Shown here one piece after another: positions 30-7,826 of a stretch of DNA of 35,956 nucleotides. Position 1 is the stretch's first letter. Every line of letters starts with the position of its first letter. Both the position numbers and the translations under genes were made by a program. This DNA comes from Aquificaceae bacterium (GTDB taxonomy: Bacteria; Aquificota; Aquificia; Aquificales; Aquificaceae), in assembly GCA_025057455.1 (NCBI GenBank), contig JANWWY010000014.1, forward strand, positions 1 to 35,956, written 5' to 3'. A model generated the notes under the pieces. That model made no database searches. It had not been told where the DNA came from and saw only the letters and a list, made by a program, of their open reading frames with translations.

Positions 30-674
30 TCATAGCCTTCCTATAAGATAGTTCCAGATTAGGAGAATGGGTGGGAATATTATCCTTCCCAACACACCCG
101 TAAAGAGTAGAAGGGTTATGGCAAGAAAGCCAAACATTTCAAACCTGTAAAAAAGTTCCCAGTATTTCACGGAGAAAAAGCTCATAACAGCCCTACTTCC
201 GTCAAGGGGAGGTATGGGTATAGCGTTGAAGAAGGCAAGCACGAGGTTTACAAGTACCGACTTTGCGGAGAATAGGGCAAGGGGTAAAAGCACGCTCTCT
301 CCCAGAAAGTCTAAATAGCCCTGGGTTATAAGCCTATACAGGAGAGCAAAAAGGAGAGCAAGAAAAAAATTCATGCCTATACCAGCAATAGACACAAAAA
401 AAGTGCCAACTCTTAGGTTTCTAAATCGCAGAGGGTTTATGGGAACTGGCTTAGCCCATCCAAAGAGTATAGGAGAACCTACCAGTATCAAAAGCCCGGG
501 CAAAAGTATAGTGCCCAGTGGGTCTATATGAGGTATAGGGTTTAGCGTCAGCCTACCAAATTCCTTTGCGGTAGAATCACCCATTTTGTAAGCCATCCAG
601 CCGTGGGCATACTCGTGGAGTATAACCGCCATCATTATAGCTGGTATGGCAACTATAGCTTCTTGAAGGTCCAT
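30..674 (-). CDS. M50-family membrane zinc metalloprotease (site-2 protease family)
   Basis: Predicted integral inner-membrane zinc protease of the small SpoIVFB-like branch of family M50, about 214 aa. The zinc motif HEYAH is at residues 20-24 inside the first hydrophobic segment, and a distal NAIPIPPLDG motif (about 150-160) supplies the third ligand Asp; both hallmarks are intact. Most of the rest is hydrophobic. There is no PDZ domain, so it is not a full RseP. I chose the ATG at 674 over a TTG one codon upstream because it overlaps the stop of the preceding flavoprotein gene as TGATG, a typical coupled start. It is the last gene of a minus-strand operon that begins near 7826. Family members cleave transmembrane segments of regulators; the substrate here is unknown. 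Family is secure, role is not. Confidence 0.88.
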   Translation of the reverse strand: MDLQEAIVAIPAIMMAVILHEYAHGWMAYKMGDSTAKEFGRLTLNPIPHIDPLGTILLPGLLILVGSPILFGWAKPVPINPLRFRNLRVGTFFVSIAGIGMNFFLALLFALLYRLITQGYLDFLGESVLLPLALFSAKSVLVNLVLAFFNAIPIPPLDGSRAVMSFFSVKYWELFYRFEMFGFLAITLLLFTGVLGRIIFPPILLIWNYLIGRL

Positions 675-2380
675 CAATACTTCCTCTCAGCAGGCTGATG
701 ATGGGTTATTCTTACATCTATGTAATCTAACTTAAGAGTGTCCCCTTCCTGTCTAACTATGGTGTGCTTTAAAAAGTTCTCGTCATCTCTTTCAGGATAG
801 TCTTCTCTGTAGTGTCCCCCTCTGGATTCTTTCCTGTGTAGTGCACAAAAGGCTACAGCCCTTGCAAGGTGTAGCATGTTCCTGAGTTCAATAAGCTCCA
901 CGAGGTTTGTGTTAAAGACCTTGCTTTTGTCCACGAGTGGAATTCTTTCCCACCTTTGCAAAAGCTCAGAGAGTTCTTCAAAGGCGGACTGCAAGGAAGT
1001 TTCATCCCTGAATATACCCATCTTTTCCCACGTTATCTCGCCCATTCTTCTTCTTATGTGAGCCAACTTTTCGTTGCCCTCCCTTTTTACAAGATGCTCT
1101 ACGAATTCCAAGCCCTTTTTCTCTTCCCCATCCGTGAGTTCTAAAAAGTCCACCTGCTTTACGTACTCCCTTGCGGATATTCCGCAGAATTTGCCAAAAA
1201 CCAAGAGCTCTATGAGTGAGTTGCCCCCCAACCTGTTAGCGCCGTGGACAGAAACACAGGCACATTCACCCACAGCGTACAAACCTTCCATGGGTGTGGA
1301 GGAAGTCATGTAGTTTTCCACATGCACGCCACCCATGCAATAGTGAGCTGTGGGTCTTATGGGAACTGGGTCGTAAACTGGGTCCACGCCTTCAAAATCT
1401 ATGGCAAGCTGACGCACTTGAGGAAGCCTTTCTTTTATCTTTTCTTCACCTAAGTGTCTAAGGTCCAGAAGCACGTAGGCAGAAGTGCCTTCGCCAAAGC
1501 CTCTACCTTCTCTTATTTCGTACTCTATAGCCCTTGAGACCATATCCCTTGGTGCAAGCTCCATTTTTTCTGGTGCATACCTTGCCATAAAACGCTCGCC
1601 TAGCTTGTTTATAAGATAACCACCTTCCCCTCTACAGGCTTCTGAAAGGAGAATGCCCGTCTTGGCAAGACCGGTGGGATGAAACTGTATAAACTCTACG
1701 TCTTTAAGAGGAAGACCATTTAAAAGGGCAACCGCTACACCGTCCCCAGTGTTGCCTATGGCATTTGTGCTTCTTTGCCAGTATATGCGCGCAAAGCCCC
1801 CCGTAGCCAATATTACCGCCTTTGCCTTAAGGTTTATCACTTCACCGTTTTTTATGTCATAAAGCACAACACCCTTTACCCTTTGTCCGTTGTGAAGAAG
1901 GTCAAGGAGGAAAAATTCGTTGAAAAAGTCTACGTTGTCCCTTGCTAAGGCTTGTTCAAAAAGAGTGTGCAAAAGCACGTGACCAGTCCTGTCTGCGGAA
2001 TAGACAGTCCTCGGGAAAGAGGCACCACCAAAAGGTCTCTGAGCTATCCTCCCATCTTCCATTCTGGAAAAGGGCACACCCCAACGGTCAAGCTCGTAGA
2101 CCACTTCAGGAGCATGCTTGCACATAAAATAAACCGCATCTTGGTCTGCCAAAAAGTCAGAACCCTTTATAGTGTCAAAGGCGTGAGCCTCTGGACTGTC
2201 TTGGGGCACCGCATTGCCCAGCGCTGCATTCAGACCTCCCTGCGCCGCACCCGTGTGCGAGCGCGTAGGATAAACCTTAGAGACAACCGCTACTCTGACG
2301 GATGGGTCTCTTGCGCACTCAATAGCGGCTCGGAGACCTGCACCACCTGCACCTACTACCACCACATCGTAAGCTCTCAT
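674..2380 (-). CDS. sdhA: Succinate dehydrogenase/fumarate reductase flavoprotein subunit
   Basis: FAD-containing catalytic subunit of the SdhA/FrdA family, about 568 aa from the ATG at 2380; a TTG three codons upstream is possible. Visible marks: the dinucleotide fold GAGGAGLRAA (10-19), the SHTGAAQGG motif whose His42 carries covalent FAD in this family, HPTG and HGANRLGGNSL in the capping and substrate region, and a C-terminal helical domain. No iron-sulfur (B) or membrane-anchor gene lies beside it, so partner subunits must be elsewhere. In Aquificales with a reductive TCA cycle this family usually serves fumarate reduction, so frdA is an equally good name. It follows the DUF202 gene after 16 bases and overlaps the protease gene by one base. 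Function class is firm; reaction direction is inferred. Confidence 0.93.
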   Translation of the reverse strand: MRAYDVVVVGAGGAGLRAAIECARDPSVRVAVVSKVYPTRSHTGAAQGGLNAALGNAVPQDSPEAHAFDTIKGSDFLADQDAVYFMCKHAPEVVYELDRWGVPFSRMEDGRIAQRPFGGASFPRTVYSADRTGHVLLHTLFEQALARDNVDFFNEFFLLDLLHNGQRVKGVVLYDIKNGEVINLKAKAVILATGGFARIYWQRSTNAIGNTGDGVAVALLNGLPLKDVEFIQFHPTGLAKTGILLSEACRGEGGYLINKLGERFMARYAPEKMELAPRDMVSRAIEYEIREGRGFGEGTSAYVLLDLRHLGEEKIKERLPQVRQLAIDFEGVDPVYDPVPIRPTAHYCMGGVHVENYMTSSTPMEGLYAVGECACVSVHGANRLGGNSLIELLVFGKFCGISAREYVKQVDFLELTDGEEKKGLEFVEHLVKREGNEKLAHIRRRMGEITWEKMGIFRDETSLQSAFEELSELLQRWERIPLVDKSKVFNTNLVELIELRNMLHLARAVAFCALHRKESRGGHYREDYPERDDENFLKHTIVRQEGDTLKLDYIDVRITHHQPAERKY

Positions 2381-2396
2381 GGCTTTCAATTTTAAC

Positions 2397-3053
2397 TCAA
2401 ATTATTCTAAGCACATAAAAGGTAAGCACAAGACAAACAAAAAGTATGACGATTCCATATACCTTATACAGAACAACGTTCGTCCTGTAATAACCCTTGT
2501 CCACCTTTGCTATAGTGCGATAGAAGTTAAAACCCCCAAGCAACAGCGTTAGAATTCCTATGCCCATCACGAAAAGACCTATGCCAAAAAGTTTTTGATG
2601 GTCTGCACTTATTTGCATTTTAAAAACTCTCTCCAACTGGACAAGGAAAAACTCAAACTTTTCTATTACAAAGCCGAAGACTATAAGGGCTATGGCTGTC
2701 CTGACCCAAGCAAGAAAGGTTCTCTCCGCCGCCATGTATATTCTAGGGTCTGTCACTTCCTTTGGATGCACCGCTATACCTCCTTCTATGTATTTTATGT
2801 CCTTGTGAAATAGAAGTAGTCCAGATACCATAAGAAAAAGACCAAAGAGGGCTGAGCCCTTTGCTACCCAATCAAGCAACAGAGAAACATGAATTCTTTG
2901 AGTGAGCTGTGCCAAGGTTTCAAACTTTCTCAGAAAGACACCAAAGGAAAGGCTATACAGGGAAAGTCTCACGTATCCAAGGTATGTTCTCTCAAGGGAC
3001 ATGTATATGCGAGCATCTCTCGCAGAAGGAAGCCTACCCTTCAAAGGTAGCAT
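2397..3053 (-). CDS. Membrane protein with two DUF202 domains
   Basis: About 218 aa. The signature of DUF202 (YidH family) occurs twice: DARIYMSLERTYLGYVR near residues 13-29 and DPRIYMAAERTFLAWVR near 103-119, each followed by hydrophobic segments. The two halves are clearly alike, so this is an internal tandem duplication of a domain usually found singly in proteins of about 100-130 aa. The second copy keeps the ERTFLAWVRT core better; the first is more diverged. The domain has no established biochemical role. The gene sits 6 bases after the DUF2229 gene and 16 bases before sdhA, so co-transcription is very likely. The ATG at 3053 is used; no strong ribosome site is seen, which suits translational coupling. 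Confidence 0.85.
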   Translation of the reverse strand: MLPLKGRLPSARDARIYMSLERTYLGYVRLSLYSLSFGVFLRKFETLAQLTQRIHVSLLLDWVAKGSALFGLFLMVSGLLLFHKDIKYIEGGIAVHPKEVTDPRIYMAAERTFLAWVRTAIALIVFGFVIEKFEFFLVQLERVFKMQISADHQKLFGIGLFVMGIGILTLLLGGFNFYRTIAKVDKGYYRTNVVLYKVYGIVILFVCLVLTFYVLRII

Positions 3054-3059
3054 TGCAAA

Positions 3060-4151
3060 CTAAAGAAAGAGTTTTTCAGGTAAGGGTGGTAGTCTTCTTA
3101 ACTTTTTCTCTATTATATCCTCCGAATACTTCTCAAGGTAGTAGACTATGGTTTCCACCCTTATCTTTACACTACCCGCAGGCTTTGTTTCATCCAGCTC
3201 GCCAAACTTAAAAAAGAGAGTGCCAGAGCCTTCTACGATTTTTTGCACCGGTGTAAAGGTAGGCTGGTCCATACCACACTCGTAGGAGGAAAGCCTTATA
3301 ACGCCTGTTATCCAAGGAAGCCTCGTAGCAAACTTTGCACCCCATATAATCTCGTTGGTGTTAGAGCTATAAGAAGAAGTCCATACGTCCGATATATCAA
3401 AGGGGCTTTTTATTATGCCTTCTCTAATCTCTTTACCAAAAAGCCAGTCCAAAAGCCAGTCATCTAAAGGCAGATAGTTGTACCATAGCACGGGATAGCC
3501 GTAAACTTGGAACTCTCCATCTATTTCGTGACCTATGCCTGGGTCCATGTGGTAGGGTCTTGCGAGAACAAGTATTGCTGGTCTGTTATTTTTTGCACAC
3601 CATCGCACTACCTCAAGACTTTTTTCCCTCATCCTTTTTTCAAAGCTCTCCAAAGCCTTAAAGCCCTCTTTGACAGCTCTTCCAGTTTCCTCAAGAGTAA
3701 GACCAGGGATTACCTCCTTTAAAGAAGTCCACAGATACTTAGGGAGCAACTCCGCCTCTGCAAAGGGGACGAAGGGAGAGACCATTTTAATACCCCTTTC
3801 CTCAAACACGTTCCCTTCTCTTAGAAAACCCGCCTTTATGTTTTCCACACTCATAAAAACCCTCGTGCAGGATAGTGTGTCCATAACGTGACCCTTAAGG
3901 AAAGAGGGAAGGGAGTATATCATGGGTAGAAATAAGAGGTTTATGTCCTTGTAAAGTAGCTCTCCTATGTGTCCTGCTAATGCCTTTACAGGAAAACAGG
4001 AATCCATGGTTATTCTTCCTTTTCCGTAAGTCCTGTACTGCTCTTCGGAAGTTTCGGAGCTGAAAACAACCTTCCCTACGCCTAAGGCGTTGAAAAAGCC
4101 CACCCAAAACTGGTGAGTTCCCCACACGTTTAGAAAACGGGGTATGCCCAC
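3060..4151 (-). CDS. DUF2229 protein, acyl-CoA dehydratase activase-associated
   Basis: Matches the DUF2229 module that in many anaerobes is fused behind BcrA/HgdC-type activase domains. Seen: an N-terminal VGIPRFLNVW, then SCFPVK followed by a Gly-His pair, LPMIYSLPSF, LARPYHMDPGIGHEID, and Cys residues in SCFPVK, TLSCT, RWCAK and YECGMD that could ligate an iron-sulfur cluster. I prefer the GTG at 4151: homologues start at the KVGIPR strand, an AGAAGG lies 9 bases upstream, and it follows the activase stop by one base. The only upstream ATG (4223) would force a 73-base overlap with the activase. About 363 aa. It acts presumably with the two preceding gene products as part of one redox system; its exact biochemical task is not established. 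Confidence 0.82.
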   Translation of the reverse strand: MGIPRFLNVWGTHQFWVGFFNALGVGKVVFSSETSEEQYRTYGKGRITMDSCFPVKALAGHIGELLYKDINLLFLPMIYSLPSFLKGHVMDTLSCTRVFMSVENIKAGFLREGNVFEERGIKMVSPFVPFAEAELLPKYLWTSLKEVIPGLTLEETGRAVKEGFKALESFEKRMREKSLEVVRWCAKNNRPAILVLARPYHMDPGIGHEIDGEFQVYGYPVLWYNYLPLDDWLLDWLFGKEIREGIIKSPFDISDVWTSSYSSNTNEIIWGAKFATRLPWITGVIRLSSYECGMDQPTFTPVQKIVEGSGTLFFKFGELDETKPAGSVKIRVETIVYYLEKYSEDIIEKKLRRLPPLPEKLFL

Positions 4152-4152
4152 C

Positions 4153-6312
4153 TTAATGGACCTTCTGGACTCTTGTCCTAAAGGCTTCCTTCTTAACAAA
4201 GTCAGCGATGTTAGGAAATTCATGCTTTACCCTCTCCATTTTTTCCTTTACCGCTTTCAGCTCCCTTTCGTCCTCCACAAGCCCCTTGGGGCAGGCATTG
4301 TTCACTATAAGCCTTACCCATCCTGCCTCCAAAGGCACCTTGCTCCAGGGTCTTCCTTCACCTTCACCTATGTAAACGTCTATAAAACTCCTTTGGCAGT
4401 TTACAGGACACCAGCTACATACCGTATCCTTTGAAGTTATAGACCTGTAGGTTAGTTTTTCCACCGCTTCAAAACCTCTAAAGTTAGTTCTTTGGTGCCT
4501 TTTATAGTGCTCAAGAGCCACGAGGGCTGCGCCTATGGCACCCGCCTCACCCGAGTAGGGATGCACATAAACCTCCGCATCTGGCACTTTTGACTTTATA
4601 AAGTCCAACTGAGACTTTACCACCGCAAGGTTTCTGTGCGTTCCGCCTTGCAGTATAAACTTTCTTCCTACCTGAGAGAGGTTGTTTATGTTGCCCGCAT
4701 AGACCCACACGTTAAGGGGAAGCACGTAACAGAGACCAGCGAGTATTTCCTCCGCCTTCCAGCCCTTTCTCTGTTGGTTTACTATGTCGCTTTGTAGGAA
4801 GACTCCGCACCCCATGGTAAAGTTGGGCATAGCCTTTGCGGAAAAGGCCTTGTCCGCAATTTCCGAAAGGGGTATGTTAAACCTCTCTGCCACACCTTGC
4901 AAAAAGGCACCGTTGCCAGAAGAGCACTGAGAGTTTAATCTAAAGTCCACCACAGAACCCTGTCTGATAATCATTACCTTCACATCCACACCACCCACAT
5001 CGCATATGCAGTCCGCATCTGGGAAAAAGTGAAGACCTGCGGTAGCATGAGCTACAGTTTCCACTACTGCCACATCCGCACCCAGTACATCTTTTAGTAA
5101 GTCCTTACCGTAGCCTGTTAGACCAAGGGCTAAAACCCTACCGTTTCCTAAATATTCTCTTATCTGCCTGAAGATTTGCTTTGCGTCCTCGATGGGATTG
5201 CCTTTGCTTAGAGTGTAGCAGGAAAACACGATTTCCTTCTCAGGGGTTATGCAGACAGCCTTTGCGGTGGTTGAGCCAAAATCACAACCTATGACCACCT
5301 CATCTACCTTCTTGGGCACTATCTTGTTCTCTACCACGTAGCTGTATTTTCTCTTGAACTCCTCCAGCTCTTCCAAAGAGCTCACCAGTCCACACTTGCC
5401 TTCCCTTAACTTGCTCTCATACTGCCCTTCGTTTACCCACCAGAGAAGCTTTTCATAACCTGCGTAAACACCGCCATCCTCTTCAAGAGCTGTAAAGACG
5501 CATCCTAATGCTGCGTAGTAAACGGAGTTCTCAGGCACCAAGACCAGCCTCTCCATTTCTTCTCTGCTAAAGTTCCCTATGCCCCTTTCTTGCCAAAGCC
5601 TTTGAAGGTGCACCCTCCAAGCTTCCTGAAGACCTTTAAAAAAGAGGTTAGGACCACCCAAAAGTAAGACCTTTGGTAGTGGGGTGTTCCCCTTTGTAAG
5701 CTGGGATAGGTTCTGATAGACAACTGCCTCAAAAAGGGAGGCTATTATCTCCTCCGTGGCAACGCCAGCCTTTACAAGAGAGTTCACGTCAGCCTCCGCA
5801 AATATGCCACACTTGGCACTTATCCGATGAAGAGTATAGCCTTCATAACCCATCTGGGAAAGCACTTCTGGAGCTATACCAAGCTTTCTGCCTGCCTTTT
5901 CTATGAAGGTGCCCGTTCCTCCGGCGCATACGTTTTGCATGTAGACCTGTCTGTTTTTCTTGCCTTCCTGCTCCTTTATGAATATGGTCTTCATGTCTTC
6001 CCCGCCTATTTCGCTTACGAACCTCACGTCGGGGTGGAGTTTTTCTACTGCAGTGGCAACGGCTACTACCTCCTGGACAAAGCGAGCACCTATGAGCTCA
6101 CCTATAAAACCACCACCAGACCCAGTTATGTACACCCTGTCCCTGCCAGGTTTAAGACCAAAGTTTCCCTCAAGCCTTTGCAAAAACTCTAAGACCTTCT
6201 CCGCCTGCTTTGTGTTGTGCCTCTCGTATGCCTTGTGTATTATGTTTCCCTCTTTGTCTGTCAAAACATACTTGCAGGTGGTGCTACCCACATCTATGCC
6301 TAGAAGGAGCAT
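4153..6312 (-). CDS. Double-domain acyl-CoA dehydratase activase (BcrA/BadF/HgdC family)
   Basis: ATP-dependent electron-injecting activase of 719 aa with two ASKHA domains in one chain. Domain 1 starts GIDVGSTTCKYV (5-16), has GSGGG (64-68) and cluster cysteines C129 (QNVCAGGTGTF) and C168 (SAKCGIFAEAD). Domain 2 starts CDFGSTTAKAV (343-353), with C463 (SQCSSGNGAF) and C502 (MGCGVFLQSD). In single-domain activases a homodimer holds one [4Fe-4S] between two such Cys pairs, so this chain could form the unit alone. The tail adds C632, C635, C639 and C674, possibly a second cluster. It follows the HgdB-like gene after 2 bases and precedes the DUF2229 gene by one. Known members hydrolyse ATP to push an electron onto a dehydratase or double-cubane protein; the partner here should be the 6315-7826 product. 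Confidence 0.92.
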   Translation of the reverse strand: MLLLGIDVGSTTCKYVLTDKEGNIIHKAYERHNTKQAEKVLEFLQRLEGNFGLKPGRDRVYITGSGGGFIGELIGARFVQEVVAVATAVEKLHPDVRFVSEIGGEDMKTIFIKEQEGKKNRQVYMQNVCAGGTGTFIEKAGRKLGIAPEVLSQMGYEGYTLHRISAKCGIFAEADVNSLVKAGVATEEIIASLFEAVVYQNLSQLTKGNTPLPKVLLLGGPNLFFKGLQEAWRVHLQRLWQERGIGNFSREEMERLVLVPENSVYYAALGCVFTALEEDGGVYAGYEKLLWWVNEGQYESKLREGKCGLVSSLEELEEFKRKYSYVVENKIVPKKVDEVVIGCDFGSTTAKAVCITPEKEIVFSCYTLSKGNPIEDAKQIFRQIREYLGNGRVLALGLTGYGKDLLKDVLGADVAVVETVAHATAGLHFFPDADCICDVGGVDVKVMIIRQGSVVDFRLNSQCSSGNGAFLQGVAERFNIPLSEIADKAFSAKAMPNFTMGCGVFLQSDIVNQQRKGWKAEEILAGLCYVLPLNVWVYAGNINNLSQVGRKFILQGGTHRNLAVVKSQLDFIKSKVPDAEVYVHPYSGEAGAIGAALVALEHYKRHQRTNFRGFEAVEKLTYRSITSKDTVCSWCPVNCQRSFIDVYIGEGEGRPWSKVPLEAGWVRLIVNNACPKGLVEDERELKAVKEKMERVKHEFPNIADFVKKEAFRTRVQKVH

Positions 6313-6314
6313 CC

Positions 6315-7826
6315 TTAACCCCTCCCCATCAGCTTTGCTATGTGCATCACGTAGTTGCTGGCAGTGCCCGCATAGCCGTAATGGGGAACCTTGTAAGTAG
6401 CCCTTTTTATCTTTGGATGCTTTTCCTCAAAGTCTCTTATCTCTTCCACCGTCAAACCGGTTTTTTCAAGGACCTCTTCAAATTCTTCCCTTGCCCTTCT
6501 TTTTGCCTCTGTAAGTATCATCTGACACCTAGAGTATGCATGCACCTCCGCATCGCCCTTTATCTCTATGGGTGCATAAAGAAGGTCCGGATAATCGCCC
6601 AATACCTTAGCCATAGCTCCTATAGACATAGTATTGGGTAAACATCCATATGGGGATAGCTCGCATATCATATGAGCCTGCTTGTTCTTATAAGCATACA
6701 GAGCCTTTCCTATAAGCATGTGTCCCTCTCCACCGGCAAGCCTGTAGTGGAAATATGGTCTGGCTAATTCCTTAAGCTTTCTCTGGTCGGGTAGCGGGTT
6801 GGGTATGTTGTTTAGGGCTTCTCTGAGCTTGTCGTACACCCTCCTGTAAAGGTAGGCTATGGTCTGTATGGCAAACTTTTTTGTATAGTACTTCTTTACA
6901 AATCCCTTTGCATCTTCCAGTTTAAAGAGCTCCATGTTTATAAGGTAATCCATCCATACAGCCACAGGCGGTGGAATAACCTCTGCTCCTTCCCTTTCCA
7001 ACCATCTTTTTATGTTGTAGTTTCCATCCCCTTCGTGAGTCTGAAGCCAGAATTCTCCCGTTATCTTTACTCTGGGCTTCACCCTTAACCTATCTACCTC
7101 TACCTCATCCCATAGTTTTCTTACTTCTTTGAGCGCATCCGCAAAGTAGTCAGTAAAGACATGCCAAAGAAGGGAATCCAATTTCTTGCCCTTTATGGGT
7201 CTTTTCTTTAAAGCTTCGTACAGGACTTCTATGCTTTCTTCTACAACTCTATCCGTTTGTCCTTCTTTTACCTCGTAGGGTCTTACTGCGTATTCCATAT
7301 CTGTTATCAGGTCTCCGTAGAACATGGAGTATACAAGTCCGAAGGTCAATGGCATGCTAATTTCAAGACCTCCTCCTGGTGCGGACTGCTCCATCCTAAG
7401 AAGGTCCAAGAGGAAAAGCCTGAAATCCCTTAGGTTTAGACCTTCCAACACCCTCTCATAGGACTCGTGGTACTGTCCAAACCTACACGGTCCACAGGAA
7501 CCTATAGTGACGAATATGTACCTATCCTTTAAGGTTTGCTCTCCTTCCTTTTCCTTTAGGGTCGTAAGGGTTCTTGCCAGGTTTCCGGCGGTAAAGGTGG
7601 TGGGACAGCACGCTCCTACATCTATGAATTCTTTACCTATGTCTAAGTCTTGTCTTTCTATGTTGGGTAGCGGTTGGCTTTTGTACCCTACCCTTTCAAG
7701 AGAGCCCTGTATGAGCCTCTCATGCTTCCATGTAAGACCGCCGAAAAGTATAGTGGTGCTTGGTCTTTCTTCTTTTGTGAAGGGTCTTGGTTTGTAGGCT
7801 TTATAGTGAACTTCTTTTGTTTCCAT
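6315..7826 (-). CDS. HgdB-like iron-sulfur protein (2-hydroxyacyl-CoA dehydratase D-component family)
   Basis: About 503 aa, resembling the HgdB/FldB/double-cubane-cluster-protein superfamily, especially the module found at the C-terminus of giant activase-DUF2229 fusions. Seen: GACCPTTF (C73, C74), GSCGPCRFGQY (C111, C114), ICELSPYGC (C388, C395) and SRC (C434), giving seven Cys as potential cluster ligands. The ATG at 7826 is chosen because AAGGAGG stands just upstream; longer frames lack such a site. It is the first gene of the operon and is followed within 2 bases by the activase. Characterised relatives either dehydrate 2-hydroxyacyl-CoA or, as double-cubane proteins, reduce small molecules; which applies here cannot be read from sequence. 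Family is well supported, substrate unknown. Confidence 0.82.
   Translation of the reverse strand: METKEVHYKAYKPRPFTKEERPSTTILFGGLTWKHERLIQGSLERVGYKSQPLPNIERQDLDIGKEFIDVGACCPTTFTAGNLARTLTTLKEKEGEQTLKDRYIFVTIGSCGPCRFGQYHESYERVLEGLNLRDFRLFLLDLLRMEQSAPGGGLEISMPLTFGLVYSMFYGDLITDMEYAVRPYEVKEGQTDRVVEESIEVLYEALKKRPIKGKKLDSLLWHVFTDYFADALKEVRKLWDEVEVDRLRVKPRVKITGEFWLQTHEGDGNYNIKRWLEREGAEVIPPPVAVWMDYLINMELFKLEDAKGFVKKYYTKKFAIQTIAYLYRRVYDKLREALNNIPNPLPDQRKLKELARPYFHYRLAGGEGHMLIGKALYAYKNKQAHMICELSPYGCLPNTMSIGAMAKVLGDYPDLLYAPIEIKGDAEVHAYSRCQMILTEAKRRAREEFEEVLEKTGLTVEEIRDFEEKHPKIKRATYKVPHYGYAGTASNYVMHIAKLMGRG

Follow-up and report, generated by a model that had tools for sequence, protein, structure and literature searches.

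The three adjacent genes at positions 3060–7826 of the window, i.e., the whole 35,956-nucleotide stretch of Aquificaceae DNA analysed here, very probably specify a glycerol ester reductase of the PlsA/Ger family in split form. Judged from its sequence, this three-gene variant, in which the last module comes first, is a known kind of enzyme in a distinct arrangement. Homology suggests, as the likely function, that ester bonds of phospholipids, the presumed substrate, are reduced to alkyl ethers with electrons from ferredoxin and energy from ATP.

All three genes lie side by side, just as an earlier note on this DNA had described, and are on the minus strand (open reading frames 7826–6315, 6312–4153 and 4223–3060). 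The first, P1 (6315..7826, 503 aa), is a PlsR/Red2-type reductase subunit of the BCR/HAD fold, assigned from its open reading frame, PlsA homology, fold and cysteine counts; it matched no Pfam family up to E 10 and no NCBIfam family. The second, P2 (4153..6312, 719 aa), is a fused double activase (ASKHA ATPases) with a C-terminal four-cysteine linker; a Pfam search found two BcrAD_BadFG stretches (PF01869, 2.2e-72), and the activase halves span 5614..6309 (residues ~2–233) and 4510..5295 (residues ~340–601), followed by the linker at 4291..4419 (CxxCx3C...CPKG). The third, P3 (3060..4223, 387 aa), matched DUF2229 (PF09989, 4.9e-47) and no other Pfam family, and by PlsA homology and fold is a Red1-type reductase subunit. 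The labels "double activase" and "DUF2229" given earlier are thus borne out by PF01869, found twice in P2, and PF09989 in P3. The gene junctions, described earlier as gaps of 1–2 bases, fared unevenly: P1 and P2 are indeed 2 bases apart, whereas the single base placed between P2 and P3 is probably an error, as it depends on a P3 start at 4151 that is probably too late. An N-terminal extension of P3 from 4223 is conserved at two loci (L135 and L141) where P3 does not adjoin P2; therefore, the start at 4223 is the more likely one on sequence grounds, and P2 and P3 would then overlap by 71 bp.

Promoter and terminator scans of the locus gave results near chance level. A gene for a double DUF202 membrane protein, recognised by Pfam (2397..3053, minus strand), begins 6 bp downstream of P3 and is perhaps co-transcribed with it, although it is not tied to the three-gene system. 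This gene belongs to a block on the same strand (window positions 30–3053) that also encodes an SdhA/FrdA flavoprotein and an M50 peptidase; the block lies near P3 in three congeners (G006, G010 and G013), with a predicted transporter-like gene between, and does not adjoin P3 at some other loci. The host genome (1.42 Mb, 66 contigs, 99.7% complete), which among named organisms is closest to Hydrogenobacter and Thermocrinis, contains a single P1 and a single DUF2229 gene, i.e., the system is single-copy, and no activase other than P2 was found in it.

P2, P3 and P1 match, in that order, along one-chain homologues from Listeria (1475 aa), Haliovirga (1449 aa) and Collinsella (1479 aa), confirming the earlier statement that the modules form one giant chain elsewhere and are split here. 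In the Listeria PlsA homologue, the matches cover residues 1–640 (P2, E 1e-98), 670–986 (P3, E 3e-30) and 994–1412 (P1, E 1e-26). PlsA has the module order Act1-Act2-Red1-Red2, the final member of which C. perfringens makes as a protein of its own, PlsR (PMC12838417); Listeria is reported to possess plsA/plsR orthologues (PMC9702350). The three one-chain proteins follow the PlsA module order, and the collinear match therefore identifies the three genes as PlsA/Ger in pieces, with the PlsR-like piece first. The identity to these one-chain proteins is only 22–32%, and the comparison set consists of generically annotated homologues, with no experimentally tested Ger or PlsA sequence among them. 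DUF2229 was also matched in two control genomes, those of Thermotoga maritima and Lactococcus lactis, which harbour tested enzymes or close relatives of those enzymes. In the literature examined on PlsA and Ger, no three-gene-type enzyme appears to have been put to an experimental test, and a literature search for DUF2229 found no functional paper. Plasmalogens are the product of PlsA/PlsR, whereas expression of the homologous Ger in E. coli yields saturated alkyl glycerols (PMC11150832). With PlsA/Ger as collinear homologues, the likely substrate is therefore the ester bond of membrane glycerolipids. The earlier note had suspected a substrate other than a hydroxyacyl-CoA but had missed these homologues. 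A lipid ester substrate would also explain the presence of such a system in an aerobic or microaerobic autotroph.

The ether lipids of Aquificales have served as hot-spring biomarkers for decades. Straight-chain glycerol monoethers are known from Hydrogenobacter thermophilus (PMC3111988) and Thermocrinis albus (PMC3035279), other Aquificales lipids include diethers (PMC4339782), and Acidobacteria make both mono- and diethers (PMC10087280). The genome of T. albus carries P1-P2-P3, so that ether lipids are on record for a species with the genes as well as for the genus Hydrogenobacter, the window's own organism being represented by a draft assembly. In the literature examined, whose scope did not include the founding survey of Ger genes, no gene for ether lipids in Aquificales is named and the three-gene variant is not described; we do not claim priority. 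A PlsA-type plasmalogen synthase, which stops at the vinyl ether and makes no saturated alkyl ethers, is the alternative that survives best, since alkyl- and vinyl-ether makers, i.e., Ger and PlsA, are inseparable by sequence (PMC13274423) and the homologues compared here are annotated generically. However, the monoethers reported for Hydrogenobacter and Thermocrinis are alkyl rather than alkenyl (PMC3111988, PMC3035279). In addition, the Ger enzymes of Thermotoga and Desulfatibacillum, which make alkyl ethers and have been expressed, are built with two activation domains ("BB") (PMC13274423, PMC11150832, PMC8788747), a feature that goes with alkyl ethers more than with vinyl ethers (PMC13274423). 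A synthase that halts at the vinyl ether is thus improbable, and a Ger-like outcome is preferred.

Of 61 Aquificales genomes, 26 contain P1, 26 contain DUF2229 and 25 contain both, so that the two occur together in 25 of 27 genomes, both exceptions being draft assemblies. P1 and P2 are adjacent at 12 of the 13 Aquificaceae loci examined. P3 is unlinked from P1-P2 in three genomes (two of one genus, and G012), all of which still keep the three genes, which argues for one functional unit. The closest relatives outside Aquificaceae are in Acidobacteria (60–65% identity), followed by Planctomycetes, Spirochaetes, Ignavibacteria and others, and most occurrences of the three-gene form are in Aquificaceae and Acidobacteria. 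This form makes up a single branch of the tree (SH-aLRT 91), within which the Aquificaceae group together (support 99) along with one contig labelled "Acidobacteria bacterium" (L030, RFFP01000033.1). The P1 of this contig is 83% identical to that of the window and falls inside the Hydrogenobacter group; the contig is probably a mislabelled Aquificaceae genome. A gammaproteobacterial MAG (L054) carries a deep-branching three-gene version with all seven P1 cysteines. The Aquifex system (L134 in genome G016, which we take to be Aquifex aeolicus) is cut at different points, with genes for a TetR regulator, an activase (611 aa), a linker fused to DUF2229, and Red2; it is ~40–50% identical, and the tree places its origin apart from that of the Hydrogenobacter type.

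Every cysteine conserved in PlsA is kept in the three proteins, i.e., four in the activase, four in the linker (CxxCx3C...C) and three in each reductase half. In P2, eight cysteines are invariant in 29/29 sequences, three one-chain PlsA homologues included: Cys129 and Cys168 in the first activase half, Cys463 and Cys502 in the second, and Cys632, 635, 639 and 674 in the linker. An alignment of P2 to the activases HgdC (1hux), 4eht and 9gai places Cys463 and Cys502 at cysteines of the solved HgdC, and the four-cysteine linker is, from its motif, a probable extra [4Fe–4S] site. In P3, C52, C95 and C292 (numbered from the start at 4151) are invariant in all 33 family sequences and the three one-chain sequences, and in P1, C73, C114 and C395 are invariant in 46/46 sequences, one-chain proteins included. 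A three-cysteine pattern of this kind binds one [4Fe–4S] cluster in HadB and BzdO (PMC11971306).

P1 contains further cysteines beyond this trio. C111 is present in most relatives, whereas C74, C388 and C434 occur in the three-gene clade only, and the P1 counterpart in a clade with P2 and P3 fused has Cys 73, 111, 114 and 395 only. The seven cysteines of P1 singled out in the earlier note are thus real, being invariant in 35/35 sequences of the three-gene clade, versus three in common with one-chain PlsA. Because the seven-cysteine type is confined to one branch of the tree, C74, C388 and C434 were gained or lost jointly. The extra cysteines could form a further cluster site or structural pairs; C388 lies mid-strand and C434 in the last helix, and the two could equally form a disulfide. 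Rather speculatively, the Red2 of the three-gene clade might possess a larger or second Fe–S site absent from one-chain PlsA, with ligands unlike those of DCCP and BzdN, that supplies extra electrons for alkyl ethers or confers O2 tolerance.

The neighbouring genes offer no strong clue beyond TetR, transporter and, at three loci, squalene-pathway-like genes. A TetR-type regulator is directly upstream at L133 (12963–13562), L134 (11236–11775), L032–L038, L048, L059 and L066; in the window no TetR gene is directly upstream, where argG is divergent. In facultative anaerobes, a TetR gene is likewise reported upstream of the pls genes (PMC9702350). MFS transporter genes, all of one kind, are directly upstream of P1 in Thermocrinis (L131:2138–3481) and in several Acidobacteria (L029, L040, L043, L049 and L057). 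Squalene/phytoene-synthase-like and FAD-desaturase-like genes, hpnCDE-like by eye, are upstream of P1 at three Ignavibacteria/Bacteroidetes loci (L083, L088 and L090), where they were recognised by sequence, and end ~20 bases before P1 in L088 and L090. PF10520, the aerobic plasmalogen desaturase, had no match anywhere searched, which is uninformative. These squalene-pathway-like neighbours, together with the deep divergence from the one-chain enzymes, the lack of a Pfam family for P1 and its extra cysteines, would suit a reductase or dehydratase that has common ancestry with PlsA/Ger and acts on another substrate, e.g., a CoA ester, an isoprenoid or a biosynthetic intermediate. However, none of the cysteines that serve catalysis and electron transfer in PlsA is missing, the groups that carry the genes make ether lipids, and squalene-pathway and TetR neighbours also fit membrane-lipid metabolism, suggesting that such a change of substrate is very unlikely and that the glycerolipid ester remains the preferred one.

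AlphaFold2 models of P1 and P3 (mean pLDDT 87) match well only the BCR/HAD/DCCP family, i.e., both subunits are predicted to fold like benzoyl-CoA reductases and 2-hydroxyacyl-CoA dehydratases. The P3 model reaches Z 14.0 to HadBC (3o3n_B), with the first unrelated match at 8.3, and the P1 model reaches Z 10.4 to HadBC, with the first unrelated match at 5.2. Profile searches of P1 and P3 against PDB sequences gave no match, which shows only that no close relative has been solved. The HH alignment of P3 to the BCR/HAD profile is weak (E 1.3e-4) and in register at Cys292, and that of P1, shifted in register, failed (E 0.059). The description of P1 as "HgdB-like" therefore holds for its modelled fold but not for its sequence, for which no Pfam, NCBIfam or PDB profile match was found.

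By Foldseek, the top four matches of P1 are DCCP chains, while by VIA-align Z, DCCP ties with HadBC and BzdN. This ranking, together with seven cysteines that are all invariant within their clade, could point to a double-cubane reductase for small molecules, of the type that DCCP represents, an option that the earlier note had thought plausible. However, the ligand positions speak against the known form of this enzyme. Six cysteines are common to DCCP and BzdN (C76, C114, C144, C309, C341 and C374 in DCCP), and of this set the HAD-type trio alone has counterparts, in P1 and likewise in P3 (3/6 in each), with correspondence judged by motif and secondary-structure element rather than by model coordinates. 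P1 and P3 both lack cysteine at the three extra DCCP/BzdN positions and so do not have the known double-cubane ligand set; a canonical double-cubane enzyme was rejected on these ligand positions. Moreover, DCCP consists of a single short protein and is served by a single short activase, in contrast to the two different reductase subunits, double activase and PlsA linker found here, and the known PlsA/Ger relatives act on lipids; small-molecule reduction of the DCCP kind is very improbable. Fermentative 2-hydroxyacyl-CoA dehydration, which the earlier note had rightly considered unexpected, was rejected, as P1 has no Pfam match and no HGD-D (PF06050) protein scored over the cut-off in the 61 Aquificales genomes, which makes a dehydratase or benzoyl-CoA reductase of the classical type unlikely.

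The earlier description of an ATP-dependent, low-potential system agrees with the membership of these proteins in the BCR/HAD radical-enzyme superfamily. For PlsA, the proposed mechanism consists of two sequential electron reductions, protonation and dehydration (PMC8788747). By analogy with such systems, we infer the electron donor, cluster content, substrate and product of the split glycerol ester reductase as follows. Reduced ferredoxin would feed electrons to the fused activase pair of P2, which would hold one bridging [4Fe–4S] cluster, with electron entry perhaps via the four-cysteine linker. ATP hydrolysis would raise each electron to a very low potential and deliver it to a heterodimer of P3 (Red1) and P1 (Red2), each carrying a HAD-type three-cysteine [4Fe–4S] site. 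The fatty acyl ester carbonyl of a membrane glycerophospholipid would then be reduced via a ketyl-type radical, and this intermediate would be protonated and dehydrated to give a vinyl ether, which would probably be reduced further to the saturated alkyl ether.

The PlsA/Ger enzyme family is known mainly from anaerobes, and temperature proxies based on branched tetraethers derive from the phylum Acidobacteria. The present assignment would extend the family to Aquificaceae and many Acidobacteria, and through the P1-P2-P3 operon the heat-stable ether lipids of Aquificaceae, known for a long time, gain a genetic explanation that can be tested. The subunit split and the seven-cysteine Red2 sequences could explain both the O2 tolerance and the outcome of alkyl versus alkenyl ethers.

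The three-gene system resembles four known systems to different degrees. First, Ger of Thermotoga maritima (Tmari_0479) and Desulfatibacillum alkenivorans, whose hosts make saturated alkyl glycerol ethers, likewise has two activation domains and two BCR/HAD-type reductase domains, a likeness drawn at the level of domains; however, Ger is one chain in strict anaerobes, whereas here three genes, with Red2 first and with seven cysteines in Red2, occur in Aquificaceae. Second, PlsA or PlsA-PlsR (Clostridium perfringens, Enterococcus, Lactococcus and the Listeria homologue) has all modules collinear with the same linker and cysteine trios, and the separate PlsR of C. perfringens parallels P1; however, PlsA/PlsR yields a vinyl ether, its activase and DUF2229 parts form one protein where the present system has two genes, and the gene order differs. 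Third, class I benzoyl-CoA reductase BzdNO-PQ and the dehydratase HadBC are alike in subunit fold, three-cysteine [4Fe–4S] site and activase ATPase, whereas they act on CoA esters, have separate short activases and show no sequence-level match to P1 or P3. Fourth, DCCP (6eno) with DCCP-R is alike in fold and activase-driven electron transfer, whereas DCCP uses six cysteines for an [8Fe–9S] cluster, versus the three-cysteine trio here, and has neither the linker nor a second, different subunit.
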